IMG/VR virus record: IMGVR_UViG_3300037504_000748
Coordinates: 1 to 59,722 of that record
From: a virus
DNA length: 59,722 nucleotides
Reading direction: 5' to 3' (one strand)
Shown here: one piece after another, positions 3,364-58,376 of the stretch
Layout: every line of letters begins with the position of its first letter
Position numbering within the stretch: the first letter of the stretch is position 1
The notes under the pieces: model-generated
The model's database searches: none
The model's input: the letters and a program-made list of their open reading frames with translations, nothing else
Told to the model about the DNA's origin: nothing
Translations under genes and position numbers: made by a program

Positions 3364-3554
3364 TGTCCAGGTTCTTCAACATCTGCTGCCTGAGGGCTGG
3401 GGTCGAACCTTCCCATAGGCAGTGGCGGAAATTCCTGAAGGGGCAAGGCTCCGCATATCATTACGCCATTCAGAGCGGCAATAAGAAACGGGCCCGCGAC
3501 GTGATCCGAGAGCACCGACCCGCAACGAAGCTTGAAACGAAACGGTTGATATGA
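3363..3554 (+). CDS. Small basic hypothetical protein
   Basis: A 63-aa basic protein. The ATG overlaps the preceding stop (TGATG), with GAAGGAGAC just upstream. A longer in-frame ORF begins at 3303, but that ATG has no ribosome site. The 3' end contains one copy of AACGGTTGA (3541-3549). Confidence 0.6.
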   Translation: MSRFFNICCLRAGVEPSHRQWRKFLKGQGSAYHYAIQSGNKKRARDVIREHRPATKLETKRLI

Positions 3555-3718
3555 TCGCATCGGCCGACGACTACAACCTGCGTGTGCCACCGGTAGTCCG
3601 GCTCCCTGAGCCGTGCCTCTGCGGCGCCCCGGACTGCCCTGTGTGCTTCCCATACTCTTGGCGCGAGTCGCGGGCCGACGAGATAGGTAGCGACGATGAC
3701 GATGACGATGAATCGTAA
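3551..3718 (+). CDS. Small Cys-rich protein with acidic tail
   Basis: The 55-aa frame overlaps the previous stop (ATGA). It has four cysteines in PCLCGAPDCPVCF, arranged like a tiny zinc-binding knuckle, then an Asp run (DDDDDDE) at the C-terminus. Metal binding is inferred from spacing only. Confidence 0.5.
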   Translation: MIASADDYNLRVPPVVRLPEPCLCGAPDCPVCFPYSWRESRADEIGSDDDDDDES

Positions 3719-3830
3719 GCGATTCGATCATCTGACGCTGGCATTGGCAGCTATCACGTGGCTGCTGGCACTGACTCTACTGGTCGTTGCCATCCAATGG
3801 CTATCAGGACCAGTAGGTCAACCGTTGTGA
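3696..3830 (+). CDS. Small single-span membrane protein
   Basis: A 44-aa product beginning inside the end of the preceding gene. Basic residues near the start (NRKR) are followed by about 21 hydrophobic residues, giving one transmembrane helix with a probable N-in orientation. AGGTAG upstream of 3696 fits that start; 3708 is an alternative. A TCAACCGTT copy overlaps its last codons. Role unknown. Confidence 0.5.
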   Translation: MTMTMNRKRFDHLTLALAAITWLLALTLLVVAIQWLSGPVGQPL

Positions 3831-3846
3831 GCCCGGCTAGTCGGGC
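3831..3846 (+). terminator. Weak hairpin after the membrane peptide gene
   Basis: GCCCG-gctagt-CGGGC directly follows the stop. There is no T-run, so it is only a weak terminator or mRNA-end candidate. Confidence 0.3.
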
Positions 3847-3919
3847 GTCAAATCTAGTTGTTGCCTTCTGCCGAGACGCGGGGATACTAGAGGTATCATC
3901 AATCATCATCAAGGAGACC

Positions 3920-4144
3920 ATGATGAGTGACCGCCCCTATCCACAACGCTCTGTCCAGACGTCATTGACGCTGGCCTTACGGGCTCGCGAGAGCCTGGTC
4001 AAAGCGCTCAATGATGTCCGTCATCTGGACAACGTTGCAGCGACTCAGCCTGCTATCGATTGCGCAGAGGTGGCCATGTCGGCCCTACTGCGGCAGTTGA
4101 TCGAAGTGATCGAGGACCGAACCGATCACCCGCGTCGCAGGTGA
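3920..4144 (+). CDS. Small helical hypothetical protein
   Basis: AAGGAGACC precedes the ATG at 3920, giving 74 aa. The frame is open further upstream but without a ribosome site. The product is mostly helical and ends in basic residues (HPRRR). No family recognised. A strong hairpin follows at 4152. Confidence 0.65.
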   Translation: MMSDRPYPQRSVQTSLTLALRARESLVKALNDVRHLDNVAATQPAIDCAEVAMSALLRQLIEVIEDRTDHPRRR

Positions 4145-4151
4145 CTGATCT

Positions 4152-4185
4152 GAGGAAGGGGCGGCCCATGAGCTGCCCCTTCCTC
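4152..4185 (+). terminator. Hairpin terminator of an early unit
   Basis: A 14-bp stem, GAGGAAGGGGCGGC paired with GCTGCCCCTTCCTC (one G-T), with a CCATGA loop. No clear T-run follows. A related hairpin occurs at 4488-4511, and each separates a gene from the next promoter. Confidence 0.6.
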
Positions 4186-4211
4186 CGAGCGCCGATCCGA
4201 GCGATTGGTTG

Positions 4212-4239
4212 TTGCCCTCCTCCCTAGTCGCCCTATCAT
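4212..4239 (+). promoter_or_regulatory. Sigma70-type early promoter
   Basis: TTGCCC, 16 bp, TATCAT, followed by GGCATAAGGAGAAC and the ATG at 4260. It belongs to the early promoter family repeated at 4521, 4825, 5108 and 5605. Confidence 0.75.
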
Positions 4240-4259
4240 ATAGGCATAAGGAGAACAAC

Positions 4260-4472
4260 ATGACCGCTCAGAACTACACCGCGATCGCGGCCGACGGCAG
4301 CTGCATCACAGGCACTGCCCGGGACTGTAAGGAAGCCTGCTGCGCCATTCGCCGCAGCGCATCTGCTCTTGGCAAAGACATCGTCTGGGCTTTCGTCGGA
4401 AACGCCTACTGCCAATACACCCCCGCTGAAATCGCCGAGATTGCAGGGGTGGAAGATTCCCGCGAGTTCTGA
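4260..4472 (+). CDS. Small Cys-containing early protein
   Basis: A 70-aa product with its own promoter and AAGGAG 6 bp before the ATG. It carries a CKEACC cluster. The frame extends in frame into the promoter (to 4209), but that part is not transcribed. No family recognised. Dedicated promoter and terminator suggest strong early expression. Confidence 0.72.
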   Translation: MTAQNYTAIAADGSCITGTARDCKEACCAIRRSASALGKDIVWAFVGNAYCQYTPAEIAEIAGVEDSREF

Positions 4473-4487
4473 TTCGCAACGGCCAGA

Positions 4488-4511: not shown

Positions 4512-4520
4512 GATTGGTTG

Positions 4521-6085: not shown

Positions 6086-6379
6086 ATGACCAAGATCGTC
6101 AAACCTACCACCGAGCGCAAGCTCGTCACCCTCACCGACGCCCAGAAGGGCACAGCCAAGCTCTGGTCAACCGTTTACAAGGGCAGCTCCAAAGGCAAGA
6201 TCTTCGACGCATCCTTGCCGAAGAAGTTCACCCTGCAAGACGTCCTCGAAGCCGTCCCGTCGCTGAAGCCGTTCAATGCGCGTCGATTGCTTCGGACCCT
6301 GCAACAAGACGGTTTGCTTTTCGTGGTCGATATCCTGGATCACAACACGTACGTGTACTCGTGGAATCCGACCCTGTGA
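6086..6379 (+). CDS. Basic early protein, possible DNA-binding fold
   Basis: A 97-aa product. AGAGGAGAGC supports the ATG at 6086; an in-frame ATG at 6011 lies too close to the predicted transcript start. The second half (FTLQDVLEAV, RRLLRTLQQDGLL, then a beta hairpin) reads like a winged-helix domain, so nucleic-acid binding is possible. Contains TCAACCGTT at 6167-6175. A large inverted repeat follows directly. Confidence 0.7.
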   Translation: MTKIVKPTTERKLVTLTDAQKGTAKLWSTVYKGSSKGKIFDASLPKKFTLQDVLEAVPSLKPFNARRLLRTLQQDGLLFVVDILDHNTYVYSWNPTL

Positions 6380-7154: not shown

Positions 7155-7901
7155 ATGACCACAGCTCTCGTTGTCCTCAGCGGCGGACAGGATTCTACTA
7201 CTTGCCTCGCCTGGGCACTCGCCGAGTTCGACACAGTACACTGTATCTCATTCGACTATGGCCAACGCCACGCTATCGAGCTCGAAAGCGCTAAGCAAGT
7301 CGCTAAACTGGCAGGCGTCTCTGAAGAGCGCCATCACTTCATCAAGGTTACTGCTCTTGCCGAGATCGGTGGAGCTGCTATGCTTGCCGGTGTCGCTCCA
7401 AAGGAAGGCGAAACGGTTGGTTCAGAAACCAGTTCTGGTTTGCCCAACACCTTCCTGCCCGGCCGCAACCTGATCTTCCTGACGCTCGCTAGTGCGCTGG
7501 CATACAAGCTCGGGATCAGCGACCTTGTCACAGGTGTCTGCCAGACCGATTACTCAGGGTATCCTGATTGCCGTCTCGAAACCATACAGCAACTCGAGCA
7601 CGCAATTACCTTGGGCATGTCCTACGACATCAACATCCATACGCCTCTCATGGACCTTACCAAAGCTGAAAGCGTCGATCTAGCGATGGAGCTGGCCATA
7701 GCGTTCGGCTCTGATGTCCCTGTGCAACAAATGCTCGCACACAGCCACACCTGCTATAACGGCCTGTTCCCTCCCTGTGGTGCCTGCCCGGCTTGTGAGC
7801 TGCGGCTTATGGGCTTCAAGGAGGCGGGCGTAGTCGACCCTGTTCTCACGCGCGCGTTCACGGATAAGGGCGAAAACATCCCCGAGAAGTACAACATTTA
7901 A
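7155..7901 (+). CDS. queC: QueC, 7-cyano-7-deazaguanine (preQ0) synthase
   Basis: QueC converts 7-carboxy-7-deazaguanine to preQ0 with ATP and ammonia. The 248-aa product has the PP-loop SGGQDS at residues 9-14 and the C-terminal zinc site C-x7-C-x2-C-x2-C (CGACPAC region). Length matches bacterial QueC. AAGGAGG at 7143-7149 precedes the ATG. No amidotransferase (Gat) domain is fused, so the end product is probably preQ0, not archaeosine-type base. The other pathway genes lie at 14.0 kb and 20.7-23.8 kb. No promoter is visible in the short gap after the terminator. Confidence 0.95.
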   Translation: MTTALVVLSGGQDSTTCLAWALAEFDTVHCISFDYGQRHAIELESAKQVAKLAGVSEERHHFIKVTALAEIGGAAMLAGVAPKEGETVGSETSSGLPNTFLPGRNLIFLTLASALAYKLGISDLVTGVCQTDYSGYPDCRLETIQQLEHAITLGMSYDINIHTPLMDLTKAESVDLAMELAIAFGSDVPVQQMLAHSHTCYNGLFPPCGACPACELRLMGFKEAGVVDPVLTRAFTDKGENIPEKYNI

Positions 7902-8006: not shown

Positions 8007-8432
8007 ATGAAAACCATCAACGAGCATATCCGCGACCACCTGTTCTCCCAATCACTGGTCGAAGAACATGGTGACAGCCTCCGCCCCGTCAAGCAAGAGC
8101 AAGCGCGAGCACCCTTCCCGGCTGCAGCTGTGCTCAAGCTATGGAAAACGGAATGGGTCCCCGAGTTCGAATGCTACATGCGCAACCGTTTCGTTATGGG
8201 CGCTTTGCGATACGGGACAATGGCGGAAAACAAAGCCCGTAGAACTCCCTACGATCGCGTTTCCAGCATGATCAAACGGTTGCAATCCTATCGGGCGAGC
8301 GGCAATCTTGAGCACCTGGTTGACGTGGCCAATCTGGCTATGCTCGAATTCGACCAGACTATTCACCCACAGGCCCACTTCGAGGCTCTGGACGGCGATC
8401 GCCGTATAGGCACAGAAAGACATCCATCATGA
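8007..8432 (+). CDS. Putative MazG-like nucleotide pyrophosphohydrolase
   Basis: A 141-aa helical product. The central part (RFVMGALRYG, then MIKRLQSY, then LEHLVDVANLAMLEF) resembles the all-alpha NTP pyrophosphohydrolase-type proteins found beside phage nucleotide genes. The usual E-x-x-E-x12-E-x-x-D metal site is not clearly present, so activity is uncertain. AATGAGGAAC precedes the ATG, and the last codons overlap the thyX start. A role in cleaning or steering dNTP pools fits the neighbour. Confidence 0.5.
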   Translation: MKTINEHIRDHLFSQSLVEEHGDSLRPVKQEQARAPFPAAAVLKLWKTEWVPEFECYMRNRFVMGALRYGTMAENKARRTPYDRVSSMIKRLQSYRASGNLEHLVDVANLAMLEFDQTIHPQAHFEALDGDRRIGTERHPS

Positions 8433-10023: not shown

Positions 10024-10318
10024 TTGTAGCATTGGATGTCACGTTGACTGCCCAGATGGAGAGATGTTCCTACGAATGCTACGTCTCGGCGAGGACACGG
10101 CTGATCATCAGGAGCAAAAACTACTGGACGAGCAGCTCGCTGAGTCCGCGGGTTACATCGAGATCGCTGACGACGAAGAAGACCACTCGTGCGGTCTCAA
10201 CACGGACGAAGAAGAAGAGCCGCATAACACTCTCCTCGACGAGAACGGCATGAGTGAGGTGGGCTGGGCCGACCTTTGGATTCAAAGATTTGAAGATGAT
10301 GAGGTGGATGATGGATGA
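10016..10318 (+). CDS. Very acidic hypothetical protein
   Basis: A 100-aa product in which roughly a third of residues are Asp or Glu, including DDEEDH and DEEEEP runs. The N-terminus has CSIGCHVDC, a possible metal knuckle. Such charge is typical of phage proteins that mimic DNA or bind basic proteins; this is inference. The 3' end overlaps the ligase start. Confidence 0.62.
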   Translation: MDDCSIGCHVDCPDGEMFLRMLRLGEDTADHQEQKLLDEQLAESAGYIEIADDEEDHSCGLNTDEEEEPHNTLLDENGMSEVGWADLWIQRFEDDEVDDG

Positions 10319-11351
10319 TTCGCTACTACCACTCACCAAGTTCGATATTGGCAAACCACTCAAAGCGTCGAACGATGTGCTACCTCTCAACCACCCCGAC
10401 ATCCCTTACCCAAGAGGGATGGTCAGCTCGCCGAAAATCGACGGCAATCGTGGCATGGCGATATGCGGTCGACTTCTATCATCGTCTGGCAAGGAACCTC
10501 GCAATGAACGGTTCCACCGACGGTTTGCTGCGCTTCGCGGGTTCGTAGCTAAATACGATATCATGCTGGACTACGAGGTGTACGCTCCGTCTCTAGCGCA
10601 TCACGCCGAGCTGTCAGGAGTGCTCAACTCGTATGATCAACCGTTGCCCGATGATTTGGCTCTCTACGTGTTCGATGGGTGCTTTCGAAACCAGTACTTG
10701 AACCAGTGCCAGGACACTCCTTTTCGGCAGCGCATTGATATGTACCACTCGTTCGTTGTGGCTCTGGACGACCCGTCCGTACGTGCCGTAACTCAGCGGC
10801 GAGTATGTGACGCGCAGCATGCCTCAGATTTGTTCAATCAAGACATTGCAAACGGGTTGGAAGGCTCGATGCTCAGAGCCCTTGATATCTGGGCAGGGCA
10901 ACGTGGGCCCTGTGGCGGATGGTATAAACACGGTCGAGCCACCAACAAACAGGGTATCATCTACAAGGCCAAGCTGTATGCGACCCATGACGGGCGCATT
11001 ACTGAGGTCGTTCAGAGGCGTGAGCTCAAGCCGGACTACCCACGTGAAAGAAACGAGTTTGGCGACTTGAAAGGCACCTACCCTAACGACGCATACACCC
11101 TGATCGAGGAAGCTGGTGCATTCCGCGTGGAATACGACGATCCTAAGACAGGTCAAACACAATCCTGTCTCTTAGGGTGGGGCAAAGGTTTTCCGCGCCT
11201 AGATCGCGTAGGATTTTGGCGAGAACGCGATAACTTGCTAGGTAAATGGGTGGAATTCAGTCATATGCCCCACGGGGCCGCGTCAGGGGGAAAGGCTCGC
11301 CATGGCCGCCTGATTCGATTCCGTGAAGATCTCGAAGGACAATCACAATGA
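10311..11351 (+). CDS. ATP-dependent DNA ligase
   Basis: Seals nicks during replication and repair. Motif I is KIDGNR, with Lys42 as the predicted adenylated residue. Motif IV is EGSML, and motif V is YKAKLY near residue 220. The oligonucleotide-binding fold follows. At 346 aa it is close to T7 ligase. GAGG at 10301-10304 best fits the ATG at 10311; 10308 and 10254 are in-frame alternatives. It overlaps the acidic gene before and ends by overlapping the next ATG. Confidence 0.92.
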   Translation: MDDSLLPLTKFDIGKPLKASNDVLPLNHPDIPYPRGMVSSPKIDGNRGMAICGRLLSSSGKEPRNERFHRRFAALRGFVAKYDIMLDYEVYAPSLAHHAELSGVLNSYDQPLPDDLALYVFDGCFRNQYLNQCQDTPFRQRIDMYHSFVVALDDPSVRAVTQRRVCDAQHASDLFNQDIANGLEGSMLRALDIWAGQRGPCGGWYKHGRATNKQGIIYKAKLYATHDGRITEVVQRRELKPDYPRERNEFGDLKGTYPNDAYTLIEEAGAFRVEYDDPKTGQTQSCLLGWGKGFPRLDRVGFWRERDNLLGKWVEFSHMPHGAASGGKARHGRLIRFREDLEGQSQ

Positions 11352-11572: not shown

Positions 11573-12111
11573 TGATACACATATATACGGATGGTAGCGC
11601 CTCGCGCATAGGTGTGACCTGCTACGGCGGGTGGGCCGCTCTGCTCATCGACGACGACGACAACGCACTGATGCTAGGACAAGGCGTCAGAGACACTACC
11701 AACAACCGAATGGAGCTGACAGCAATTGCTGAAGGACTCGAAGCGATGATCCGTTCAGAGCTCGTACGTGTGTTCTCTGACTCCCAGTACTGTGTTCGGT
11801 CCATCAACGAGTGGATCAACGGTTGGCGGAAGAGAGGCTGGGCAAAGGCTGACGGGGGTCGTGTCAAAAACATCGATCTGATGGAGCGTCTTTTCGAACA
11901 AAAAACACGCCTGACAGTCGACGCAAAGTGGATTAAAGGGCACAACGGCCACAGGTATAATGAGGCCGTCGACGAGTGGGCTGTTTTTATGCGCTATGCC
12001 GCGGGCGACGCGGGCGACACATTGGACACGGAGACGATCCGCGGTCCTCTGGATTATGTTCTCGGCGAGGTCGACTACCAAATTACGACGCATGAGATAC
12101 ACCGCGGTTAG
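11572..12111 (+). CDS. rnhA: Ribonuclease HI
   Basis: Degrades RNA in RNA-DNA hybrids, for example primers. The acidic residues are in place: D7 (YTDGS), E48 (NNRMEL), D70 (SDSQY) and the late Asp in GHRYNEAVDEWA after the conserved KGH. The length, 179 aa, has about 25 extra residues at the C-terminus compared with E. coli RNase HI. It sits between ligase and helicase genes in the replication operon. Confidence 0.95.
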   Translation: MIHIYTDGSASRIGVTCYGGWAALLIDDDDNALMLGQGVRDTTNNRMELTAIAEGLEAMIRSELVRVFSDSQYCVRSINEWINGWRKRGWAKADGGRVKNIDLMERLFEQKTRLTVDAKWIKGHNGHRYNEAVDEWAVFMRYAAGDAGDTLDTETIRGPLDYVLGEVDYQITTHEIHRG

Positions 12112-12259: not shown

Positions 12260-12655
12260 ATGGGTGACCCCTCTTCGAACACAATCGACGCCGAGCAAGT
12301 CTTCAAAGAAATGAAACGACTGCAGGAGGCGGTGCAGCACTTCATAGACATGATCCACGGTCTAGCCAAAAACGACGACCACGCTCTGGATTTATACGAT
12401 GCGGTGCAGAAGATCAATGTCAGTGCTGCATTATTAGGTCAGGCGGCCGCAAATTGCACGCGACAGCCTGTTGAGAGCGATGCCATACTCGAAGCGCTGC
12501 TGGCATGGATGGCTCAACTATACAGGGTCATTGAACAACCAGTGCCAACCTACTCAGCGGCCGTAGTGTTATACAAGTTCCTGCGCTCTTCCAAGGAAGA
12601 CACAGAGCTGCTTGTGCGCCGCCTCACAGGTCAACCGTTGGATTCTTTTCAATGA
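12260..12655 (+). CDS. Helical hypothetical protein
   Basis: A 131-aa alpha-helical protein immediately upstream of and overlapping the helicase gene by 4 bp. No family recognised. It contains TCAACCGTT at 12631-12639. Confidence 0.65.
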   Translation: MGDPSSNTIDAEQVFKEMKRLQEAVQHFIDMIHGLAKNDDHALDLYDAVQKINVSAALLGQAAANCTRQPVESDAILEALLAWMAQLYRVIEQPVPTYSAAVVLYKFLRSSKEDTELLVRRLTGQPLDSFQ

Positions 12656-14031
12656 CCGATCAACTGAAGCCGTATCAAGACACTCTTTCTAAACGGGTAC
12701 GCAGAGATCGTAGTCTGATCAGCTTACGGTATGGTGCCGGCAAGACATGGGTTGCTCTCATAGCGATACAACGGTTGATATCGACCCTGGGAGATCGCGA
12801 CTATGGATGTGCCGCGCTCTGGTTCACTAAAAACCGTCTTGCGGGCACAGCTGTTGACGAAATCCTCAAACGCAGTTCATACCTTCCGGAGAAATGGGAA
12901 GATATGGACGGACCTCCGCAACCTTATTCCATTGTTGTTATTCCGCATACATGGATCCGTACCCGCACCAAAGAAATCAAACAGCTTATCCTTCATCACA
13001 AACCCGCATGCGTGACTTTCGACGAGTCCACCAAAATCAAATCCCCGAGTACCAAGATAAGTACAGAGCTCCACAAACTTGCCGGAGTACATCAGACCGC
13101 GGTACCTAAGGGACTTCGTCTGTGTCTGACTGGCAACCCCTGTCCAGAAGGGCCGCACGAATTTTGGTCCCAATTCCAGTTCCTCTATACATATGGAAAT
13201 CCTCTTGGCAATACTTATTACCGCTTTCTCAAAAAGTGGTTTATCCAGCTCGACCATGATAGGGTTTTGAACGCGCTTACCAGGAAACGGTTCTGGGAGA
13301 CTGTCAAGAAGCATACGCTCTACATGAACAAGGCTGAGTGGGCAGAGTATAAGAGAGAGTATGGTCTCGAAAAGAATTATGTCACTCTCACCTATACCCC
13401 GTCCGCAGAGCAGATCAAGCTTATGAAGCAGTTGCAGAATGAGTGGTCGCTACCAACCGGGGATGGAGGTGACGAAGAATGGTACGACTACTCGTTGACA
13501 GTGGGTGCTAAGGCGCTACAAATATCCAACGGCTTTTACTATTCAGAAGAGAGGGAAGTTGTATATCTCAAATCATCCCCCAAGGCCGACCTTCTCTGCG
13601 GCACGCTGGAAGACTTGCTCAATGAGGCTTCTCGCCAAGTCATCGTGTGGTTTCATTACGACGCAGACCGCCGTATGCTCATCCAGAAGATGCAACGCTT
13701 TATCGAATACGGGATCGCTATCGGTCCATCAGAAGAGGAGCTTCATAGGTTCGAGCGCGGGGAAGCGCGTATCATTCTCATGCCGGTCACAGTTTCAGAG
13801 GGCTTCAACGAACTTGTTGTTGCAGACACACAGATCTTTTTCACCAACACCTACTCCCAAGAGATGCGCGATCAGGCCGAGCATAGAATCGATCGTCTAT
13901 CCCAGCAATCGCCAACGGTCACGTATATCGATCTCGTGGGCGAAGGGATGCGGGACGACGAAATGCGTATCGCCGTAGCAGCTAAAAACCCTGAACTGAT
14001 CGCGCACGCAGTGCGGTCAATACTACCCTAG
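12652..14031 (+). CDS. SNF2-like superfamily 2 helicase
   Basis: A DNA-dependent ATPase of the phage SNF2-like type, probably for replication or recombination. Motif I is RYGAGKTW (residues about 26-33), motif II DEST, motif III LTGNP, and the C-terminal RecA lobe ends in QAEHRIDRLSQ (motif VI). At 459 aa it contains both core lobes and little else. ATGA overlap with the gene before. It is followed after 9 bp by queD with its own AGGAG. Confidence 0.9.
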   Translation: MTDQLKPYQDTLSKRVRRDRSLISLRYGAGKTWVALIAIQRLISTLGDRDYGCAALWFTKNRLAGTAVDEILKRSSYLPEKWEDMDGPPQPYSIVVIPHTWIRTRTKEIKQLILHHKPACVTFDESTKIKSPSTKISTELHKLAGVHQTAVPKGLRLCLTGNPCPEGPHEFWSQFQFLYTYGNPLGNTYYRFLKKWFIQLDHDRVLNALTRKRFWETVKKHTLYMNKAEWAEYKREYGLEKNYVTLTYTPSAEQIKLMKQLQNEWSLPTGDGGDEEWYDYSLTVGAKALQISNGFYYSEEREVVYLKSSPKADLLCGTLEDLLNEASRQVIVWFHYDADRRMLIQKMQRFIEYGIAIGPSEEELHRFERGEARIILMPVTVSEGFNELVVADTQIFFTNTYSQEMRDQAEHRIDRLSQQSPTVTYIDLVGEGMRDDEMRIAVAAKNPELIAHAVRSILP

Positions 14032-14040
14032 GAGAATCAC

Positions 14041-14634
14041 ATGTACACGGTCAAGAAATCGATTGACATCGACTTCGCCCATCACGTTGATGGTCATCTC
14101 GGCCCTTGCATCAACATTCACGGTCACACCTGGAAGTTTGAACTCGAGGTGGAAGCAGAGGAGCTAGATGAGCACGGGTTCGTCATTGACTTTGGCGACC
14201 TCAAACGTGAAGTGCTGCAGCCTGTCCATCAAATGCTCGATCACGGTCTTCTGATCAGCGAAGCGACTATCGCTATGTGCAGCGCCTCTCTCACCCAACT
14301 CGGAAGGGTGCTCACCAACACCCGTAATAGCGAAGACGTGGCCGCACTCGAGAGGATAGGCGCAGAGACCAACCGTTGGTTGTTTCGTAGCGCACGGGTA
14401 AACTCCACTGAAGAAGGTTTGAATGGTGCTTACGACGTCGATATGGGAGGTATGAAGGTTATTATTTTCCCGCAAGCACCTACTTCAGAACGCATCGCCC
14501 GTTGGCTTGCTCGTTTGGCAGATAAACGTCTGGTACAGTCCGGCCGCTATGTCAATCTCTATTACATCACCGCATCCATTTACGAGACTATGCACCCCGT
14601 CAATTCGGTCGCCTCTTACCGCTTACTTGTGTAA
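14041..14634 (+). CDS. queD: QueD, 6-carboxy-tetrahydropterin synthase, with an insertion
   Basis: QueD makes 6-carboxy-5,6,7,8-tetrahydropterin, the second step to preQ0. Zinc ligands are visible as H14/H15, H27 and H29 (HGH), with C23 as the catalytic Cys candidate. PTSERIARWL near residue 155 carries the conserved Glu of the family. The usual length is about 120 aa; here 197, because roughly 60-70 residues are inserted between the two halves. AGGAGAATCAC precedes the ATG. Confidence 0.9.
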   Translation: MYTVKKSIDIDFAHHVDGHLGPCINIHGHTWKFELEVEAEELDEHGFVIDFGDLKREVLQPVHQMLDHGLLISEATIAMCSASLTQLGRVLTNTRNSEDVAALERIGAETNRWLFRSARVNSTEEGLNGAYDVDMGGMKVIIFPQAPTSERIARWLARLADKRLVQSGRYVNLYYITASIYETMHPVNSVASYRLLV

Positions 14635-15181: not shown

Positions 15182-16291
15182 ATGACCCTTTTCAATGAGG
15201 CAACCCCAATCTCCCTTGACGCTTTGATGGTAGAAGGGGAGCAGATGACAGCGATGGAAGTATTTTCCATGTGTCGTCTGGATGAATACACGCAATCAGC
15301 TATCACAACCTGTATGCGTTGCGATATGAAGTTTTTCTTGCGCTACATACTGGGGATCACTCCCAGAGGTTTCAATAAGAATTTCCTTGTAGGCAAGATG
15401 GTACACAAATTCTTTGAGCTCTCTCTCGTCCCTCTCGTCAACGGTGAAAACATTGCGCCTGTCCTTCAGAAAGCAATGTTCAAATGGGACAAGATGATTG
15501 AGAAGATTCTCGAAGATAGCGATCTAGTAGGCGGCAACGATATGCACGCCCTCAATTACGCCCGCGCACAATCCACTGCAATGTGTCGGGCATGGCTAAC
15601 TCTCCACGGGGATGCTTTCGCCGACAAGTATGAAATCGTTTCCGTAGAACAGACTGTTCGTGCTACCGAAGACCCCAAATTCGAACACTTTATTTATCGC
15701 TGCGCAGGTCAGATGGACGGCGTACTGCGCGAGAAAGAAGATAAAGAAAAGTGGTGGTTGATAGAGCATAAGTCCCGTTCCCAAATCAACGCTCTCAATC
15801 AATTCGATCTCATGACCGACTTCCAGGCAAACTTCTATATTGCTTTGGCTGTCTTCCGTCTGGCCGAGTTCCTCCAGCAGTATTCTGATATCCAAGGTAC
15901 ATGGATGGGCTTTCTGTTCAATGCTATCAAGAAACCTCAACATCGTGTCAAGAAAGGCACCAACGATTACGAAGAGCTGGCCGGCCGTATGTACGAAGCA
16001 ATGCTCGGTGATCCTGACGGGTACTTTTTCCTTGATCGTGTATCGGTCGATATGGACACGGTTATTATGGCCATGACTGATGCCCGGCTCATGATCGATT
16101 ACATCAACTCCATGGTACCGGAGAAAGTCATTCGCCGCACTACTGCATGCGCTGACTACGCAGGATGCGAATATAAGCCCCTTTGCCAACACGGTGCAGT
16201 AGCTGTCGATCTCGACTCCATCATCTACAATCCTAACATCAACCTCTATCAGGGTAAAGCTGCTCACGAAGAGCTCAAGGAGGAAACATGA
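15182..16291 (+). CDS. PD-(D/E)XK nuclease with Fe-S cysteines (RecB/Cas4-like)
   Basis: The 369-aa product opens with SAITTCMRCDMKFFLRYILG, the Cys-containing entry of the Cas4/AddB nuclease family. It has GQMDGV and LIEHKS as the catalytic D...ExK, and closes with CADYAGCEYKPLC, which with the N-terminal Cys would hold a 4Fe-4S cluster. GGAAG precedes the ATG at 15182. It overlaps the Sak4-like ATPase by 4 bp; exonuclease plus annealing ATPase plus SSB form a phage recombination module. Confidence 0.85.
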   Translation: MTLFNEATPISLDALMVEGEQMTAMEVFSMCRLDEYTQSAITTCMRCDMKFFLRYILGITPRGFNKNFLVGKMVHKFFELSLVPLVNGENIAPVLQKAMFKWDKMIEKILEDSDLVGGNDMHALNYARAQSTAMCRAWLTLHGDAFADKYEIVSVEQTVRATEDPKFEHFIYRCAGQMDGVLREKEDKEKWWLIEHKSRSQINALNQFDLMTDFQANFYIALAVFRLAEFLQQYSDIQGTWMGFLFNAIKKPQHRVKKGTNDYEELAGRMYEAMLGDPDGYFFLDRVSVDMDTVIMAMTDARLMIDYINSMVPEKVIRRTTACADYAGCEYKPLCQHGAVAVDLDSIIYNPNINLYQGKAAHEELKEET

Positions 16292-17187
16292 ACAATCAAA
16301 TCGGTGACCCTGCTCCCGAACCTAAATCACAGGAAGAGCAGCTGCTCATAGCCGTCCTGCCCGGTAAGCCGCGTCCCCCTAAAAAGCATCTCGAAGGTGG
16401 TGTCTTCTGGTTATACGGCGACATGAAGATCGGTAAAACGACTCTCGCCTCTCGCTTCGATGGTGTGTGGTTTCTGGCTACTGAGAAGGGCCAAGACTTT
16501 GTCAAATGCCGCGAGCCAACGGTCATCACTTCTTGGGCCGGCTTCGTCAAGCTGGTGCACGTCCTCTGCACAACCAAGCCCGAGAAGTTCGCTGACGGAG
16601 AACCGATCAAATGGATCGCCATCGACGTTTACGGTGATCTGTATCGTATGTGCATGGAGCATACGAATCATAGCCTCGGTGTCGAAGACCCTTCAGAACT
16701 CGGACATGGTAAGGGATGGTCGCGTTTGCGCAACCACTTCTTCCAAACCATGAACAGGCTGCGCCGTGAAACCCCCTACGGCATCATCCTCATCGATCAC
16801 CGCAGAATTACGCAATTCGAAGCTGCAGGTAAAAAACAAAATCGTATAGAGCCAAGCGTAGGCGCTGCGGGTTACGATTGGGCAAAGAAGAACGCCGATC
16901 TCATCGCATACGCTGCGATTACCCAGGTCGCTGAACGAGTCGACGGTCAGCCTACGGGAAACATACTCGAGAAGCGAGTTCTCTACACCCATCCCAATAT
17001 CTCATTGGTGGCTGGTGGACGCTTTCATGAAGCACTTCCCGCCGTCATTGACCTCTCTTCTGACCTCGTTCTGGATAAGCTCCAGAATCGCGAACTCAAG
17101 GAAGAGAAACTTCAAAGCGACTCCCTCGAAGAGGCAAACATCCGCGCGCCTACTGTTGACGGAGAAGCTGCGAGCGAACTCGGGTAA
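16288..17187 (+). CDS. RecA-fold ATPase, Sak4-like single-strand annealing protein
   Basis: A 299-aa product with Walker A GDMKIGKTT at about residues 44-52 and a Walker B-like WIAIDVYGD; IILIDHR follows. The size and RecA-like core fit the Sak4/phage nucleotide-binding family, which promotes annealing with SSB. It is encoded between the PD-(D/E)XK nuclease and SSB, with AAGGAGG before the ATG. The C-terminal 40 residues are charged and probably flexible. Confidence 0.8.
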   Translation: MNNQIGDPAPEPKSQEEQLLIAVLPGKPRPPKKHLEGGVFWLYGDMKIGKTTLASRFDGVWFLATEKGQDFVKCREPTVITSWAGFVKLVHVLCTTKPEKFADGEPIKWIAIDVYGDLYRMCMEHTNHSLGVEDPSELGHGKGWSRLRNHFFQTMNRLRRETPYGIILIDHRRITQFEAAGKKQNRIEPSVGAAGYDWAKKNADLIAYAAITQVAERVDGQPTGNILEKRVLYTHPNISLVAGGRFHEALPAVIDLSSDLVLDKLQNRELKEEKLQSDSLEEANIRAPTVDGEAASELG

Positions 17188-40245: not shown

Positions 40246-40989
40246 TAGGCTTCTCCAACGATTCGAGATGCTCTCGAATCCACTCTCGATCGGCAGTTGT
40301 CACAAGAAATGTGATGTCGTGCCGTTCTTCGGTGTCGTAAATCGCCATGAGTTCGAGCCATGCGAGTATCTCGGAGTACAGCAACGGTTGAATAGTGTGT
40401 GAGGGCCCGATCTGTCTTGATCCGGCCAGCGCGACGAAACACTCCCATGCCAGTACTGTGACGGGGTCGGACAGCTCTGGTCGCTCGTCGAGCGCGCGAG
40501 CAGATAGGCCGCGTGCTCGACGTCCTTCCAGATACTTCAGATACTTCGGGTCCCGGCCCCATGCTCGCTCCCAGATTACTCGCTGACGGACTTTCCCGCT
40601 TCGTCTTCGATCTTGGTCCGCCGATAGTTCTCTGTGCTGTTCGCAACTGCAATCACGAAGTTGTAGATGTCGGCATACTCGGAGTCTTCCAGCACCTTCT
40701 GACCGATTGCAGGAGTGTATTCGAGGGGCTGGCCTCTGTCGTCCTCGACGTTTCTCCAGTCGAGAAGCACAGTGTGCGCAATCGCTTCCTTGGACAGGCT
40801 CTCTAACGTTTCGTCGTCCAGCACGTCATGTCGCATCTGGGCCCGCAACGGTTTACCGAGCTTGCGCATGTAGCGGCGAAAAGCGGGGTTTCCAAGTCGA
40901 GCGATCTTGAATTGTATTCCTTCGGCGTAGTCGACCCAGACGCCGTTGATCTCGGTGTCAGAATCCAAACGAAGTTGACTGAGTTTCAT
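40181..40989 (-). CDS. Tail assembly chaperone G-T fusion by -1 frameshift
   Basis: Ribosomes that slip back one base at GGGAAAG leave the G frame after codon 133 and read 136 more codons, giving about 269 aa and ending at 40181. The -1 frame is open from 40591 to its stop, though it has no start codon at its head. It continues as VRQRVIWERAWGRDPKYL and ends in basic residues. Position just before the tape measure matches lambda G-GT organisation. The last 65 bp overlap the tape measure start. Confidence 0.82.
40576..40989 (-). CDS. Tail assembly chaperone, unshifted G product
   Basis: A 137-aa product of the zero frame. It is acidic and helical with RRYMRKLGKPLRAQMRHDV in the middle, like tail chaperone N-terminal domains. 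It ends only five codons after the slippery heptamer (GKSVSE). It probably keeps the tape measure soluble and recruits tail tube subunits. Confidence 0.82.
   Translation of the reverse strand: MKLSQLRLDSDTEINGVWVDYAEGIQFKIARLGNPAFRRYMRKLGKPLRAQMRHDVLDDETLESLSKEAIAHTVLLDWRNVEDDRGQPLEYTPAIGQKVLEDSEYADIYNFVIAVANSTENYRRTKIEDEAGKSVSE
40591..40597 (-). promoter_or_regulatory. Programmed -1 ribosomal frameshift site GGGAAAG
   Basis: On the minus strand the heptamer G-GGA-AAG lies in the correct phase (X XXY YYZ) of the chaperone gene and equals the lambda G/GT slippery site. The zero frame stops 15 bases later, and the -1 frame continues open for 137 codons. Confidence 0.85.
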
Positions 40990-42648: not shown

Positions 42649-43091
42649 TGCCTGATCTCTCTTAGTCGTTGCAGATTGACAGAGACCATACCCTGAGGCG
42701 CCTGTGTGCTGCTGCCGTCCTCAAGAAAGCCGATGTACTCAAGATTGTTTTGAATAAACGAGGTATCGCCCAGCCTAATCCGTTGGGTTTCTTGGGCACC
42801 TTCTTGAACCGCCTCCTCACCGGATGTACGATCAATCGTACCGGTTTTTTGCCCGCCAACAGACGATTGCCAGTTCCCCCGTGCTCGACCTGTGTCCACG
42901 GGCGTATCTTTCACTATGCCAGCGAGTAGATCCATGTGTATTTGACGATGAAACTGCTGCCCTGCTTGGCCAACAAGATCGATACTGTCTTTCAGAAAAC
43001 GGTTGAATTGCTCGGTACTGTCTGTGAGTTGGCGGCTGAGGCGTTGCATGCGTTGTTCGGTGTTCTCGCGCTTCTGTCTTGGGTTAGCCAT
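42645..43091 (-). CDS. HK97 gp10-like neck protein
   Basis: A 148-aa product with TPVDTGRARGNWQ and the C-terminal YIGFLEDGSSTQAPQGMV, the two hallmarks of the HK97 gp10 family, which sits in the neck or tail completion complex. The overlap with both neighbours indicates coupled translation. Confidence 0.85.
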   Translation of the reverse strand: MANPRQKRENTEQRMQRLSRQLTDSTEQFNRFLKDSIDLVGQAGQQFHRQIHMDLLAGIVKDTPVDTGRARGNWQSSVGGQKTGTIDRTSGEEAVQEGAQETQRIRLGDTSFIQNNLEYIGFLEDGSSTQAPQGMVSVNLQRLREIRQ

Positions 43092-44850: not shown

Positions 44851-44893
44851 TGGATATTCCTTATGGGTATAAAACGGTTGATGGTATGGTGTG

Positions 44894-46708: not shown

Positions 46709-47740
46709 TTATTTGCCGCGCCTTTCTAGCTCGGCAAGGGTTAAAGGTTCGTTGCGTCGATCGACCATATCTGTCAAAGACCGCCCTTGACGAAACATAC
46801 GGCCGCGGCGAACCCCAAGGACTTCGTTCTGGACATCGACGCTCTGACGCTTCAGCCATTCGCTGTAGGTCGTTTTGCCCGGGACGCTCCCGTCCATACT
46901 CGCACGAGTTGATGGAGCAGGATCCTTGAGTCCGTATTCTTTGTAGCTCTTGAGAACAGGAACAGTTGTGCTCCTGCAGCGATAGTGCATGGGCGGTCGC
47001 GGCCCCTCGTTCACCGGGAACTCTTGGCCGTCCAGGGAGGCACACTCAAGTGTGGTGCGTGCGTCCAGTGTCGCAACATACTGCACCGCTTTTATTACAT
47101 CATTCTGCTGGTACGTCTCCTCACGAGCTCGCGCCGAGGCGTGTGTAATGGACGTGCGAACAATAGACTCCGCTTGACGACGACTGAGACCTTCAGTCGC
47201 ATGTCGGAAGCGTGAAGCTATCTGATCAGTAGACTCTCCCCGGGCGAGACCCGTCAGAATCGACTCGCGAGCTGCCGTTCTCACCGAAAAGCCAGCCCTT
47301 TCCCACCAATCAGATAGCACCGCACCTTCGAACGGCGACTCAACAATCATCGCACCAAGCATTCTCAAATCCGGCTGCGCAAGACCAACACGTATGGGCA
47401 GGGCTTCTTGCATCGATGCCACCTGCCAAGATACTTCCATCTTGGCAACCTCACGTACGACTTGCGCGTTGTTTACGCCGAGTTGCTTGTAACCCTCAGA
47501 AATGATTTTGCCCATGGACTTGTCGAGATATTGCAACCGCTGATTGTACTTCCAATTGATATAAGCACTGCGAGCTCGTATGTTGGCAATACGCTCAACA
47601 ACCTCAGAGTGTAACGGTTGCCAAACCGTGTTGTACAGCGTGTCAAGCAAGACCCGGGCTTCGTGCGCCTTCAAACGTTCCATGTAGAACGAATGTTCGA
47701 TGCCTTTATCGAGGAGAATTTCATTCGTTGACGGCATCAT
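46709..47740 (-). CDS. Mu F-like minor head protein
   Basis: A 343-aa product. RTSITHASARAREETYQQND followed by ATLDARTTLECASLDGQEF and PPMHYRCRSTTVPV is the Mu gpF/SPP1 gp7 signature, with CxxxDGxxF and HYxCR. These proteins assist portal and head assembly. Overlaps the portal gene by 20 bp. Confidence 0.9.
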   Translation of the reverse strand: MMPSTNEILLDKGIEHSFYMERLKAHEARVLLDTLYNTVWQPLHSEVVERIANIRARSAYINWKYNQRLQYLDKSMGKIISEGYKQLGVNNAQVVREVAKMEVSWQVASMQEALPIRVGLAQPDLRMLGAMIVESPFEGAVLSDWWERAGFSVRTAARESILTGLARGESTDQIASRFRHATEGLSRRQAESIVRTSITHASARAREETYQQNDVIKAVQYVATLDARTTLECASLDGQEFPVNEGPRPPMHYRCRSTTVPVLKSYKEYGLKDPAPSTRASMDGSVPGKTTYSEWLKRQSVDVQNEVLGVRRGRMFRQGRSLTDMVDRRNEPLTLAELERRGK

Positions 47741-49828: not shown

Positions 49829-49855
49829 GGCGGGCCCCTAACGGTTGAATATCGC

Positions 49856-50116: not shown

Positions 50117-51529
50117 TTAGAGATCTTGGCGTACCAAGAATGATTGTGTAGTACTGTGCTTGCGTTCGATGTAGTAACCGAGGGCGTCCGACAAGTGAGT
50201 CAGTGCCGGGTCTTTCTTTTTATCGATTTCACCTGATCCACCTTGTAGGAGCGAAACACCTTCAAAGTCCTTAATGAGATATGTGCACGACGGATCGATT
50301 AGCATGCGCGTCACACCGGATGCATTTCGCAATCTTGTGTTGATAGCGTTTACGCGTGCCCGCTCTGAAGGGTTGGATTTCGGCACGTCGAACCGCAGCC
50401 GGTCACCAAAGACGGGGCGGAGCTCATCTCGAATGAGGTCCCAATCCGACCCGTGCACCTTCGCTGTACCTCGCGACCCACCGGTTGCGTCGCCGTAGCA
50501 GGTGATGATTCCTTTATGGTGGCCCCAGTCGTGGATAAGCTTTCGACATACTGCCGGGGTCGTGGAGTTTCTGGGGATGTGTACTTCGCCGAGGACCGCT
50601 GTAAACTCTCTAGCAAGAGAGCCAATTCGACCCAGGTAGATGCTTTCTTGAGCCACCGCCGCCGTTCCCGGCTGGACATTGAAGTCAAAACAGAATGCAA
50701 GAGGTGCCTCGTTATTGTAGTATCCGGATAGATCCTCACATCCATGGATCTCACGATCGAAGTTGTAGTATGCGAGACCTTCGAAAGAAACAAACGATCC
50801 TTCATATTCCTGCTTGTAAACAAGGTCATCCAGCTCGCGCTTAGCTGCCTCAATCTCCTTAGGATCAAGAACTGTCGACGAATACCACGTGTAGAAACTC
50901 CATTCTTCATTCTGCAATCCTTTGGCCATCATAGCGATGTCGTAGTAGTGATTACGGCCTTCTGGCACGCCGATGAGCCATGCCCATCCTTCACGACCGA
51001 GAGTCGACACCGCAGGTCTGACGTGCAGTGTCCAGGCTACTTCCTTCATGTTGCCGTACTCATCGAGCACGATCCCGTCCACTGGCGATCCCTCAACACG
51101 TTCGGGGCGATCCATACCGACGACCTGAATGTGTGCGCCGTTCCACAACCAGATTGTACTGGTGGTCTCTTTGATGGGCTCTCGTCCGTGAGACTTGGAC
51201 AGCGCCCATTTTGGCACTAGTCTTTTGAGATCCTCCCAGTAGATTTGTTTTGCCTGTGGAAGAGTTGGCGCCCCGCATATGAAACGGCCATCATCGAAAT
51301 CGCAAAAGGTTATCGCCTTCAGCACCAGCTTGCGTTTAGCTAGCTCTGTTTTACCGGAACGACGACCGGCGCTCACGACTTTGAAGCGAGCAGGGTCGAC
51401 CCATAATGCCGCTTGTTTCCGGTGATATTTGAGCGTGGTCCACCGAGGGGGAAGTGTCAATCCGCCGACCGACTGAGGGTGATGAGCCCCTGTTTGACTA
51501 TTTCTGACGAGTGTCGATGTATGAGTCAT
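50117..51529 (-). CDS. terL: Terminase large subunit
   Basis: DNA-packaging motor, 470 aa. Walker A is SAGRRSGKTE (about residues 53-62), Walker B VDGIVLDEYG. The nuclease domain has FCFDFNVQPGT, CYGDATGGSRG and HLSDALGYYI with its acidic residues. The ATGA overlap with the gene before fixes the start at 51529; the frame is open to 51646. The Thr-rich N-terminus MTHTSTLVRN has no known role. Confidence 0.93.
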   Translation of the reverse strand: MTHTSTLVRNSQTGAHHPQSVGGLTLPPRWTTLKYHRKQAALWVDPARFKVVSAGRRSGKTELAKRKLVLKAITFCDFDDGRFICGAPTLPQAKQIYWEDLKRLVPKWALSKSHGREPIKETTSTIWLWNGAHIQVVGMDRPERVEGSPVDGIVLDEYGNMKEVAWTLHVRPAVSTLGREGWAWLIGVPEGRNHYYDIAMMAKGLQNEEWSFYTWYSSTVLDPKEIEAAKRELDDLVYKQEYEGSFVSFEGLAYYNFDREIHGCEDLSGYYNNEAPLAFCFDFNVQPGTAAVAQESIYLGRIGSLAREFTAVLGEVHIPRNSTTPAVCRKLIHDWGHHKGIITCYGDATGGSRGTAKVHGSDWDLIRDELRPVFGDRLRFDVPKSNPSERARVNAINTRLRNASGVTRMLIDPSCTYLIKDFEGVSLLQGGSGEIDKKKDPALTHLSDALGYYIERKHSTTQSFLVRQDL

Positions 51530-53355: not shown

Positions 53356-53694
53356 TTATCCGTTGAAGTGCACCTGCGCGATAGCGGCGACAGTCGATCC
53401 GTCCAGCGATTCGACGTAGACGCTCGATGCATCGACAGGAATGGTCTCTTCGACACCGGCAGCCACGTGGGCGTTGCAGGCATCAGCAGCGTGACCGTGT
53501 TGAAAAGCCTCGCGATCGGTACCGTCAGCTATCGTCGCCCGGATCTTGACATCGAGGATCTGATTCGAGCTCAGGCCGCTGGAGCTCGCAACGGTTGACA
53601 GGATCAAACTCAGCAGGGTGGCCGCCGAGCCCGAGACTGGAATTGTGATCGCTACCGTCAGGTACCGATCGCAGGTTGTCAGGTTGCTGTTCAT
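53356..53694 (-). CDS. Small virion-type protein
   Basis: A 112-aa product. AAGGAAACCAAC precedes the ATG at 53694. Beta-rich, with YLTVAITIPVSGSAATLLSL at the N-terminus. Its first 170 bases overlap, in another frame, the 3' part of the preceding gene. It ends just before the LamG-like gene and may be its partner. Confidence 0.6.
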   Translation of the reverse strand: MNSNLTTCDRYLTVAITIPVSGSAATLLSLILSTVASSSGLSSNQILDVKIRATIADGTDREAFQHGHAADACNAHVAAGVEETIPVDASSVYVESLDGSTVAAIAQVHFNG

Positions 53695-55583: not shown

Positions 55584-55809
55584 ACCCCATGACAGCTTCC
55601 ATCAGGTGCTTTGAACGGTTGCCAAGTTGCTCTACCAGGCCTGCGACATGTATGAAGTTACCTTCGACTCTGGAGGTAGTCGTGAATTCGTCGTGCTCGA
55701 TATCACCTTCACTCCTGTATTGGCAGGAGACAGCAATGCTCGAACAGCGTGAACAGAGCTCATCCAAAAGCTCGTCGGTGGTCACACCTATCAACACCGG
55801 GTTTTTCAT
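55564..55809 (-). CDS. First small gene of the late arm
   Basis: An 81-aa product. TAGGTGAGC precedes the ATG at 55809; a GTG at 55815 is an alternative. It contains a C-x2-C and a further Cys (ELCSRCSSIAVSC) and is acidic. Unknown function; first gene after the divergent control region. Confidence 0.6.
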   Translation of the reverse strand: MKNPVLIGVTTDELLDELCSRCSSIAVSCQYRSEGDIEHDEFTTTSRVEGNFIHVAGLVEQLGNRSKHLMEAVMGYDESDG

Positions 55810-56252: not shown

Positions 56253-56672
56253 GTGGCAGCTACTTCCACCCCAATAATCCTCACCTGCCCTCTGCACGAT
56301 GGCACAGATCCCGACTCCCCGCTTGACCCTACTGTTTGTAGGGTCTTCGGGACGTTTTCCACGGCTAAGCGAGCCTGGATCGCCGCCGTCCAGCTCATAG
56401 AAGGCGTCTATCAGAAGCCCAATGGGCAGCTCTCCATGCCGCGATTCGAGATTGACGATGATCGGTCGGACTGGCATGCTTACTGGAAGTATACTAAGAG
56501 AGGGTGCGTGGGAATCCTACGGCGCAAGCACTCGGTTTTCTATGTGCGCTCGGATTACACCTACTTTAATCGCCCCAGCTGGTCGCCTCTCAGCGACCTC
56601 GAGACCGACATCCCCACTGCTGCCATCCGCTACGAAGAATGGCGCAACCCGAAGGTGATAGATGGGGGTTGA
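56253..56672 (+). CDS. Early hypothetical protein
   Basis: A 139-aa product with GTG start behind GGAAAGGGAC. Mixed alpha/beta with many aromatic residues (RSDWHAYWKYTKRG, SVFYVRSDYTYF). No family recognised. It is the first gene after the divergent region, so likely among the earliest expressed. Confidence 0.7.
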   Translation: MAATSTPIILTCPLHDGTDPDSPLDPTVCRVFGTFSTAKRAWIAAVQLIEGVYQKPNGQLSMPRFEIDDDRSDWHAYWKYTKRGCVGILRRKHSVFYVRSDYTYFNRPSWSPLSDLETDIPTAAIRYEEWRNPKVIDGG

Positions 56673-56696
56673 CACCCCTCAAGACTGGTGTATAAT
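56669..56696 (+). promoter_or_regulatory. Near-consensus sigma70 promoter
   Basis: TTGACA, 16 bp, TATAAT. The -35 overlaps the stop of the previous gene. Transcript leader of about 60 nt before the ATG at 56765. Confidence 0.85.
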
Positions 56697-56764
56697 ACAG
56701 ACAGATGCACACGACAACCACCTATCAACCAACCACCCGCCCCACAGGGGCACAGGAGACCATC

Positions 56765-57013
56765 ATGCACACCACCAATCCGAGCACCGTCACTGCCGCA
56801 GACCATAACATCATCGCCATCGCCGTCGGCACCCCGTACCGGGGGGATGGCCTGCTGGTCAACGTAGGGTCCGCGCATGTACGAACTGGCGACCATGTCC
56901 GTGTCTACACCGACGAGGACGCCTACATCGCGCGTACTGACGACTACACGCTGATGCAGATAGTCAAAGAGCCGGTCACGAACATCGTCACGGTCGTCGA
57001 CCACGGTGCCTGA
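56765..57013 (+). CDS. Small early protein, beta-rich
   Basis: An 82-aa product. CAGGAGACCATC precedes the ATG; the frame is open from 56705, but that ATG lacks a ribosome site. Alternating strands (LLVNVGSAHVRTGDHVRVYT) suggest a small barrel. Unknown role. The leader ACCAACCACCCGCCCC with GGGGCACAGGAGACCATC recurs before the next gene. Confidence 0.68.
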   Translation: MHTTNPSTVTAADHNIIAIAVGTPYRGDGLLVNVGSAHVRTGDHVRVYTDEDAYIARTDDYTLMQIVKEPVTNIVTVVDHGA

Positions 57014-57061
57014 CCACACCAACCACCCGCCCCAAACCAGGGGCACAGCAAGGAGACCATC

Positions 57062-57592
57062 ATGCCCGCCATCCCACACAATTCTGATGACCTCTTCGAG
57101 GTCATCATGGATCTGCTCTCATGCAAGAGCGACATCCTTGCAGGCGGAAGAGCCCTGCAACGCGAAGCCGCTAGGCAAGGCGGTGACGACATGCCTGACG
57201 TGGTGGACGCCACGGGACGGGTCGCTGCTGCTATCCGCGCGTTGGAGACCGCGCACGCCGCTGCCTTGCATGACAGGATCGTGCAGGCCGTCGTAGACGA
57301 CGGATTGGCCGAATACAGCACAACCGGCCTCGGTCACTATATTAGAGGCGGATGGCTCATCTGCACCCGCCAAAACCGGTATCTCATGGTTGGGCGCAGG
57401 TCTGTCGGCGCCGTGCGGGTCGACCAGGACGGGGTGATCATCAGCCGTATCGGCGAGACCCCTCCGAGGAGGTATTGCACACCGGGGTTTTGCTTCGAGG
57501 TACCGGGGATGGCGATCGGCCAAGCGATCCCGAGCCCTCTGGATATATCAGCCGCGAAATCGGGGCAAAAGATGATGCCTTGGGCCGGCTGA
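57062..57592 (+). CDS. Early hypothetical protein
   Basis: A 176-aa product after AAGGAGACCATC. Helical N-terminal half; the C-terminal half is beta-rich (YIRGGWLICTRQNRYLMVGR). Starts with the same leader as its neighbour. No family recognised. Confidence 0.68.
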   Translation: MPAIPHNSDDLFEVIMDLLSCKSDILAGGRALQREAARQGGDDMPDVVDATGRVAAAIRALETAHAAALHDRIVQAVVDDGLAEYSTTGLGHYIRGGWLICTRQNRYLMVGRRSVGAVRVDQDGVIISRIGETPPRRYCTPGFCFEVPGMAIGQAIPSPLDISAAKSGQKMMPWAG

Positions 57593-57639
57593 TAGGAAAC
57601 ACACTCGCCCCACGGGGCATAGCACAAGGAGACATCGTC

Positions 57640-57960
57640 GTGTCTATTGACGACCACATTGACCAAGCTCAACTTAACGACGCCATCGCCGAGCTTGAAG
57701 GCACACCTAAGTGTGAGGAGGACATGCATCCACCCACCACTTACGTCTACATCACCTTCGGTCAACGCCACACTCACTCGCTACCTAAGCGACCAACGTT
57801 TGACAAGGACTGTGTCGCGCGCATCAAGTGTCGCAATTACAGCCACGGCAGGGAGCGTGCCTTCCAACTATTCGGCGACAAATGGCACAACGCCTATGCC
57901 GCCGAAGAATTCGACCCCTCCATCATGCGATACTACCCGAGAGGAATTATCGATGTCTGA
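57640..57960 (+). CDS. Early protein, GTG start
   Basis: A 106-aa product. AAGGAGACATCGTC leads to GTG at 57640; the frame is open further upstream inside the previous gene, but only this start has a ribosome site. Basic centre with CVARIKCRNYSHGRE. No family recognised. Ends by overlapping the next ATG by 8 bp. Confidence 0.62.
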   Translation: MSIDDHIDQAQLNDAIAELEGTPKCEEDMHPPTTYVYITFGQRHTHSLPKRPTFDKDCVARIKCRNYSHGRERAFQLFGDKWHNAYAAEEFDPSIMRYYPRGIIDV

Positions 57961-58030
57961 TCGCTACGCGGGAGCGGTATCCGTTTCAGCCCACGATCTA
58001 TTCAATCACCCCACGACCACCTCTCTTTGA
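57953..58030 (+). CDS. Putative 25-aa peptide
   Basis: GAGAGGAATTATCG precedes an ATG overlapping the previous gene. The short frame ends 14 bp before the next ATG. It may be a coupling leader rather than a protein. Confidence 0.3.
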   Translation: MSDRYAGAVSVSAHDLFNHPTTTSL

Positions 58031-58043
58031 AAGGAGAACCATC

Positions 58044-58376
58044 ATGAATACCGAAGTCCAGATCTTACTCGACAGGATCGAGGTCAAAGTCGGCCGCACG
58101 ATCAATCTTGGCAACTATGAGAGCATGAGAGTCGACTGCACTCTGTCGGCAAGCCTGCGCGATAAAGACGGTCAACCGTTGACAAATCAACGCGGCTGTC
58201 TGGCCGAGGCCCATGAACGGTTGACCAAAGAGTGCAACCTCAAGCTCGACGAACAGGTCGACCTCAGCCTTAGAGCCCTCCAGAAAAAGGTGAACCAGGG
58301 GCGCTTTGAGGAAATGCTTGAAGAAACAGGTCTCAGCGAGGATGATGTTCGCGAAATGCTCCAGGGCCGTCTGTAA
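58044..58376 (+). CDS. Early helical protein
   Basis: A 110-aa product after AAAGGAGAACCATC. A beta start (QILLDRIEVKVGRTINLGNY) then long charged helices, ending in LSEDDVREMLQG. Two copies of the AACGGTTGA motif, in opposite orientation (58172-58180 and 58216-58224), lie inside. Unknown function. Confidence 0.7.
   Translation: MNTEVQILLDRIEVKVGRTINLGNYESMRVDCTLSASLRDKDGQPLTNQRGCLAEAHERLTKECNLKLDEQVDLSLRALQKKVNQGRFEEMLEETGLSEDDVREMLQGRL

Follow-up and report, generated by a model that had tools for sequence, protein, structure and literature searches.

The motif and its copies in the window

We analysed the viral genome record IMGVR_UViG_3300037504_000748 of IMG/VR over its whole length of 59,722 nt (hereafter the window), through which a nine-base motif, AACGGTTGA, is dispersed. 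The last 127 bp repeat the first exactly (59596-59722 = 1-127), so the window is a complete siphophage genome that closes at 59,595 bp. The late genes occupy 55.8 to 26.3 kb and point leftward; the early and replication genes point rightward, from 56.2 kb via the join to 26.3 kb. The window stretches tested gave no DNA-level match to known phages.

Exact k-mer counts on both strands of the window give 23 copies of AACGGTTGA, 16 on the plus and 7 on the minus strand, every one at the coordinate and strand listed in a preliminary description of this DNA. Markov backgrounds of orders 1, 2, 3 and 4 predict 0.45, 0.61, 0.89 and 1.39 copies, respectively, and at each order AACGGTTGA is the highest-z 9-mer of the window. 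Codon usage as the cause of the excess can be rejected, since 300 shuffles of synonymous codons within genes yield on average 0.6 copies in genes, and 3 at most, against the 18 observed. The copies occupy all reading frames, in genes and in gaps, which together with the codon null bears out the earlier view that selection acts on the DNA itself. The two noncoding copies previously noted, at 44.87 and 49.84 kb, are both real, yet two was an undercount: by our gene calls five are intergenic (3541, 3818, 40383, 44873 and 49840). The further sites were likewise more numerous than the ten first counted. Beyond AACGGTTGA there are 13 AACGGTTGN sites, with C as last base in 7, G in 3 and T in 3, and the core is therefore the octamer AACGGTTG, present in 36 copies (24 plus, 12 minus) where 2.8 are expected (z 18.8). 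The copies are as follows.

3541..3549 (+), AACGGTTGA, intergenic
3818..3826 (-), AACGGTTGA, intergenic
6167..6175 (-), AACGGTTGA
7412..7419 (+), AACGGTTG then G
8183..8190 (-), AACGGTTG then C
8275..8282 (+), AACGGTTG then C
10637..10645 (-), AACGGTTGA
11818..11825 (+), AACGGTTG then G
12631..12639 (-), AACGGTTGA
12770..12778 (+), AACGGTTGA
14370..14377 (-), AACGGTTG then G
19029..19037 (+), AACGGTTGA
20116..20123 (-), AACGGTTG then C
21879..21886 (-), AACGGTTG then T
22080..22088 (+), AACGGTTGA
23662..23670 (-), AACGGTTGA
25185..25193 (+), AACGGTTGA
26253..26261 (+), AACGGTTGA
27034..27042 (+), AACGGTTGA
27819..27826 (+), AACGGTTG then T
29402..29410 (-), AACGGTTGA
30285..30293 (+), AACGGTTGA
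31845..31852 (+), AACGGTTG then T
34021..34029 (+), AACGGTTGA
35741..35748 (-), AACGGTTG then C
36334..36341 (+), AACGGTTG then C
37257..37265 (+), AACGGTTGA
40383..40391 (+), AACGGTTGA, intergenic by our gene calls
42998..43006 (+), AACGGTTGA
44873..44881 (+), AACGGTTGA, intergenic
47613..47620 (+), AACGGTTG then C
49840..49848 (+), AACGGTTGA, intergenic
53590..53598 (+), AACGGTTGA
55614..55621 (+), AACGGTTG then C
58172..58180 (-), AACGGTTGA
58216..58224 (+), AACGGTTGA

The motif is sharp at 8-9 bp: substitutions are hardly tolerated anywhere but at the last base, where A is favoured (23/36) and C, G and T each exceed chance too. No flanking position of the AACGGTTG copies carries information; a mobile or duplicated element was rejected, as the flanks have nothing in common. 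Nor is the octamer half of a symmetric operator (TCAAC-S-GTTGA), since C precedes it in 10 of 36 copies (the count of the 9-mer CAACCGTTG), about its base frequency and hence no preference. A host repeat of the HIP1 type was also discarded, with 5 copies of GCGATCGC observed versus 2.4 expected. We found no publication naming the motif; as a mark of the Chi kind, its sequence would be one not previously reported. Overall, we are highly confident that it is a selected, strand-specific DNA signal.

Strand orientation and spacing

The octamer is evenly oriented in the early arm (10:10, plus:minus) and skewed in the late arm (14:2), where 9 of the 10 exact AACGGTTGA copies lie on the plus strand. 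The preliminary description had singled out these nine as antisense to transcription; the count is right, but its weight as a signal is slight, because about 74% of AACGGTTGA copies in genes would be antisense from codon constraints alone, sense frame 0 containing a TGA stop. The 14:2 bias of the octamer is partly due to codon constraints.

Spacing, on the other hand, differs between same-strand and opposite-strand pairs. The smallest gap between plus-strand copies of AACGGTTG (n=24) is 781 bp, a threshold set post hoc and reached in 0 of 5000 simulations, and that between minus-strand copies (n=12) is 1738 bp (P 0.001-0.01). At fixed thresholds, which are not post hoc, no same-strand pair lies within 500 bp where 5.7 are expected (P ~0.002), and 6 rather than 17 lie within 1500 bp (P ~0.001). 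Opposite-strand pairs occur at chance (5 versus 4.8 below 500 bp; 12 versus 14.4 below 1500 bp), the closest being 43 bp apart. There is no single period, whether plus copies are taken alone or all copies are pooled. This same-strand repulsion with opposite-strand independence is a new feature. Since the rule acts per strand, the reader of the motif would treat the two orientations as separate signals, and repulsion only between copies on the same strand is what separate reading of each orientation leads one to expect. As a statistic the rule is simple, and any phage collection could be screened with it for polar DNA signals.

Octamers in related and unrelated phages

Absence from close relatives with the same gene order had been named in advance as an argument against the motif. 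Such absence holds for distant relatives only: the motif is not enriched in about 100 records (counted in sets of 24, 16, 11 and 50) related through portal, capsid, terminase or tape measure proteins at ~30-66% protein identity. In G027, the syntenic fragment nearest to the window, AACGGTTG occurs once in 11.7 kb and AACGGTTGA is absent. The collections searched yielded no close relative with the motif. The motif therefore belongs to this phage or to near kin outside those collections. A scan of IMG/VR for inverted AACGGTTGA pairs returned 36 hits, of which many were identical sequences present in more than one contig and several lay within hairpins; an apparent excess of 42-44 bp pair spacing was a product of the repeated contigs. 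One record, G057, looked promising with 6 copies and was dropped, as its AACGGTTG count is 11 versus 10 expected.

A different octamer behaves alike in a second phage. In the IMG/VR phage G179, a capsid relative, CGGTGTTG occurs 53 times (27/26 by strand) where 5.5 copies are expected, with no association with gene boundaries; same-strand pairs below 500 bp number 3 versus 13 expected (P 0.0007), and opposite-strand pairs 11 versus 13.6. Its kin G180, also from IMG/VR (44 shared proteins, mean identity 69%), carries 41 copies. When the two are aligned, 5 of 24 CGGTGTTG sites are conserved, against 12% of the sites of any octamer, which suggests that density is maintained rather than position. 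The resemblance to the window motif thus lies in dispersal over both strands, gene independence and, in G179, same-strand repulsion; the sequence is another one, and G179 and G180 have only a few, distant proteins in common with the window phage. In G021, CGGTGTTG is the top octamer (9 versus 1.5 expected). The DNA of G021 shows no similarity to that of G179, and the two have no more than one weakly similar protein in common. In a survey of about 60 phage records, an octamer dispersed on both strands with z>12 was confined to the window, G179/G180 and P1. Two further words were set aside, TATGTTGA of G031 for its one-stranded clusters within genes and ACAGAAAG of G180 for being one-stranded and intergenic. 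The latter, 89% intergenic in G180, is the core of AACAGAAAG, which is enriched almost solely on one strand in G180 and G174 and is probably regulatory or a translation leader.

It is conceivable, and we propose it tentatively, that these phages represent a class of "octamer ladders", in which different polar octamers are spaced per strand and their positions turn over at a kept density; they would be either Chi words of uncultured hosts, so far unknown, or marks of an undescribed phage-encoded system of strand-specific processing.

Candidate readers of the octamer

Phage P1 proved a useful positive control for octamer scans: its top octamer is Chi, GCTGGTGG, with 50 copies versus 7.1 expected (z 15.7; strands 31/19). 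With one gene caller applied to all genomes and a cut-off of 40 bp from a gene boundary, 14% of P1 Chi sites lie near a boundary (random 12%), and so do 17% of AACGGTTGA and 11% of AACGGTTG copies in the window (random 16%). Among the known kinds of dispersed site compared (P1 Chi, stoperators, P1 C1 operators and nick motifs), only Chi agrees with the window motif in both gene-boundary independence and strand use. The likeness to Chi of P1 and T5-like phages extends to a sharp octamer on both strands, a similar excess and a GT-rich 3' half (GGTTG here, GGTGG in Chi), although the word itself differs. Strand-wise spacing and the P1 comparison thus point to a recombination signal, a reading missing from the preliminary description. 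Specifically, AACGGTTG, with A preferred at position 9, may be a Chi-like signal of a host RecBCD/AddAB-type enzyme, the reading that we rank first, at somewhat less than an even chance. Chi is over-represented in phages that have a recombinase but no RecBCD inhibitor, and also in virulent T5-like phages (PMC3784561). The following genes of the window, identified by PHROGs and Pfam scans covering part of the predicted genes, bear on this and on the alternatives.

10308..11351 (+), ATP-dependent DNA ligase (PHROG 114)
15182..16291 (+), PD-(D/E)XK exonuclease, a phage recombination gene (PHROG 1218, Pfam PF12705)
16288..17187 (+), Sak4-like recombinase (PHROG 124)
50117..51529 (-), terminase large subunit (PHROG 2)

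With Sak4 and the exonuclease, and with no Gam or Abc2 detected by the PHROGs scans in the genes covered, the phage fits the type with a recombinase and no inhibitor. PolA, a primase-helicase, RNase H and a RuvC-like resolvase were found as well.

Under the Chi-like reading, a host helicase-nuclease of the RecBCD, AddAB or AdnAB type would enter at a DNA end and degrade inward until it met the octamer in the right orientation on one strand, whereupon degradation would stop and recombination start. The host would use the same octamer, and the phage, gaining protection or recombination, would have built up copies roughly every 2 kb on each strand, so that an enzyme from either side would soon reach a correctly oriented copy. 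If the chromosome ends near the divergent gap at ~56 kb, and polarity is as for Chi of E. coli, an enzyme entering beside the terminase would run into plus copies, the first at 55.6 kb and the rest below it, and one that enters from the opposite side would run into minus copies at 58.2, 3.8, 6.2, 8.2 and 10.6 kb and on. The 22-kb stretch without minus copies (35.7-58.2 kb) would then be the last reached by the second enzyme. On these assumptions, the layout of the sites would fit such an order of encounter.

Several observations weigh against a Chi-like signal. P1 Chi itself lacks the same-strand repulsion seen in the window, and CGGTGTTG lacks it in G180. Known Chi words are more G-rich than AACGGTTG. 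The missing inhibitor is weak evidence because RecBCD inhibitors are small and fast-evolving and the scans covered part of the predicted genes. AACGGTTG, CGGTGTTG and GCTGGTGG each match NNNKGTKG, a likeness spotted post hoc and so a lead only. The phage scans and surveys turned up no unrelated phage with AACGGTTG. Sampling of potential hosts covered cyanobacteria, and none of 59 is strongly enriched for the motif, so that a cyanobacterial host is not supported.

Among the alternatives, site-specific single-strand interruptions of the kind known from tf, Rembedalsseter, phiKMV and T5, with a phage-directed nickase cutting AACGGTTG on one strand, would account for a sharp, asymmetric 9-bp motif dispersed through genes, like the nick motifs TACTRTGMC / WACTRTGAC of tf and Rembedalsseter. 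Nick-motif phages also avoid short same-strand gaps (minimum 574, 721, 1115 and 2239 bp; in tf, 0 same-strand pairs below 721 bp versus 2.8 expected), and the window phage has its own DNA ligase and, as in tf, convergent gene arms. Yet the sites of the four nick-motif phages are strictly one-stranded (14:0, 14:0, 9:0 and 0:9, versus 24:12 here), those of tf lie near gene starts and prefer the vicinity of gene boundaries (43% within 40 bp, random 15%) as the window sites do not, and opposite-strand nicks 43 bp apart, a spacing that is not avoided here, would risk a double-strand break. We consider nicking improbable. A polar signal for a machine encoded by the phage itself, such as a favoured initiation site for lagging-strand synthesis, or a mark for packaging or translocation, about every 2 kb per strand, seems to us about equally improbable. 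Per-strand spacing with independent strands would suit it, and phages with different replication genes do have different octamers. On the other side, G021 shares the octamer of G179 with essentially no shared proteins, which a host reader suits better; primase sites comprise 3-5 bases, and we know of no phage machine using such an octamer.

Of the three readings offered in the preliminary description, a packaging or chromosome-organising signal is still conceivable, and the other two fare worse. Repressor sites silencing a prophage, whether stoperators or dispersed operators of the P1 C1 type, are very unlikely. Cluster A stoperators are, like the window motif, asymmetric and present in more than 20 copies genome-wide, and one orientation does prevail in 9 of the 10 exact late-arm copies; stoperators, however, are 13-bp, transcription-oriented, intergenic sites accompanied by a repressor gene. 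Those of Bactobuster (cluster A) are 88% intergenic, and 94% lie no more than 40 bp from a gene boundary (random 18%), and P1 C1 sites are 75% intergenic, with 38% within that distance (random 13%), whereas the window sites are 14-22% intergenic and 11-17% near a boundary, as random. Early-arm orientation, moreover, does not follow transcription, and no integrase, repressor or partition gene appeared among the proteins scanned. Least likely of all, in our view, is a recognition motif for DNA modification, for instance 7-deazaguanine insertion. The window does encode the preQ0 (7-deazaguanine) pathway genes FolE, QueD, QueE and QueC, and a candidate transferase at 22905-23759. A restriction or modification target, however, gives no reason for a 13- to 26-fold enrichment; G180 has its 41 octamer copies without detectable QueC, QueE or FolE, while G184 has QueE and FolE yet no such octamer. 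The deazaguanine phages examined to date modify short contexts, GA or GGC. The title of a paper by Olsen et al., cited in PMC11780129, names a single GA motif. The candidate transferase itself, a 284-aa plus-strand protein adjoining the preQ0 genes and preceded by a phosphoribosyltransferase gene, resembles by eye a DNA guanine transglycosylase (DpdA); its sole match is PHROG 20335 (function unknown), and tblastn gave no relative in the phage collection.

A host signal of the Chi kind would be of wider use. So far very few bacteria have a known Chi-like word, and for most Proteobacteria none has been found (PMC8022716). If enriched phage octamers report the Chi of the host, phage genomes would give a direct read-out of it, uncultured hosts included, and could also serve for host assignment.

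The window holds other recurrent elements and one large late gene. CATAAGGAG (4245, 4555, 4858, 5142, 5368, 5638 and 5808, plus strand) precedes each of seven small early genes in a row by exactly 15-16 bp, as a standardised ribosome-binding leader. TTGTTGGGCG and AGATCAGCGG (112-2172 and 59707) recur in the gaps ahead of several early genes and make up a repeat unit between genes of the first early operon. The gene at 26296-30843 (minus strand) encodes a late protein of 1515 aa that carries kelch-like repeats and, near its N-terminus, a zinc carboxypeptidase (M14) domain, and is likely tail-associated.

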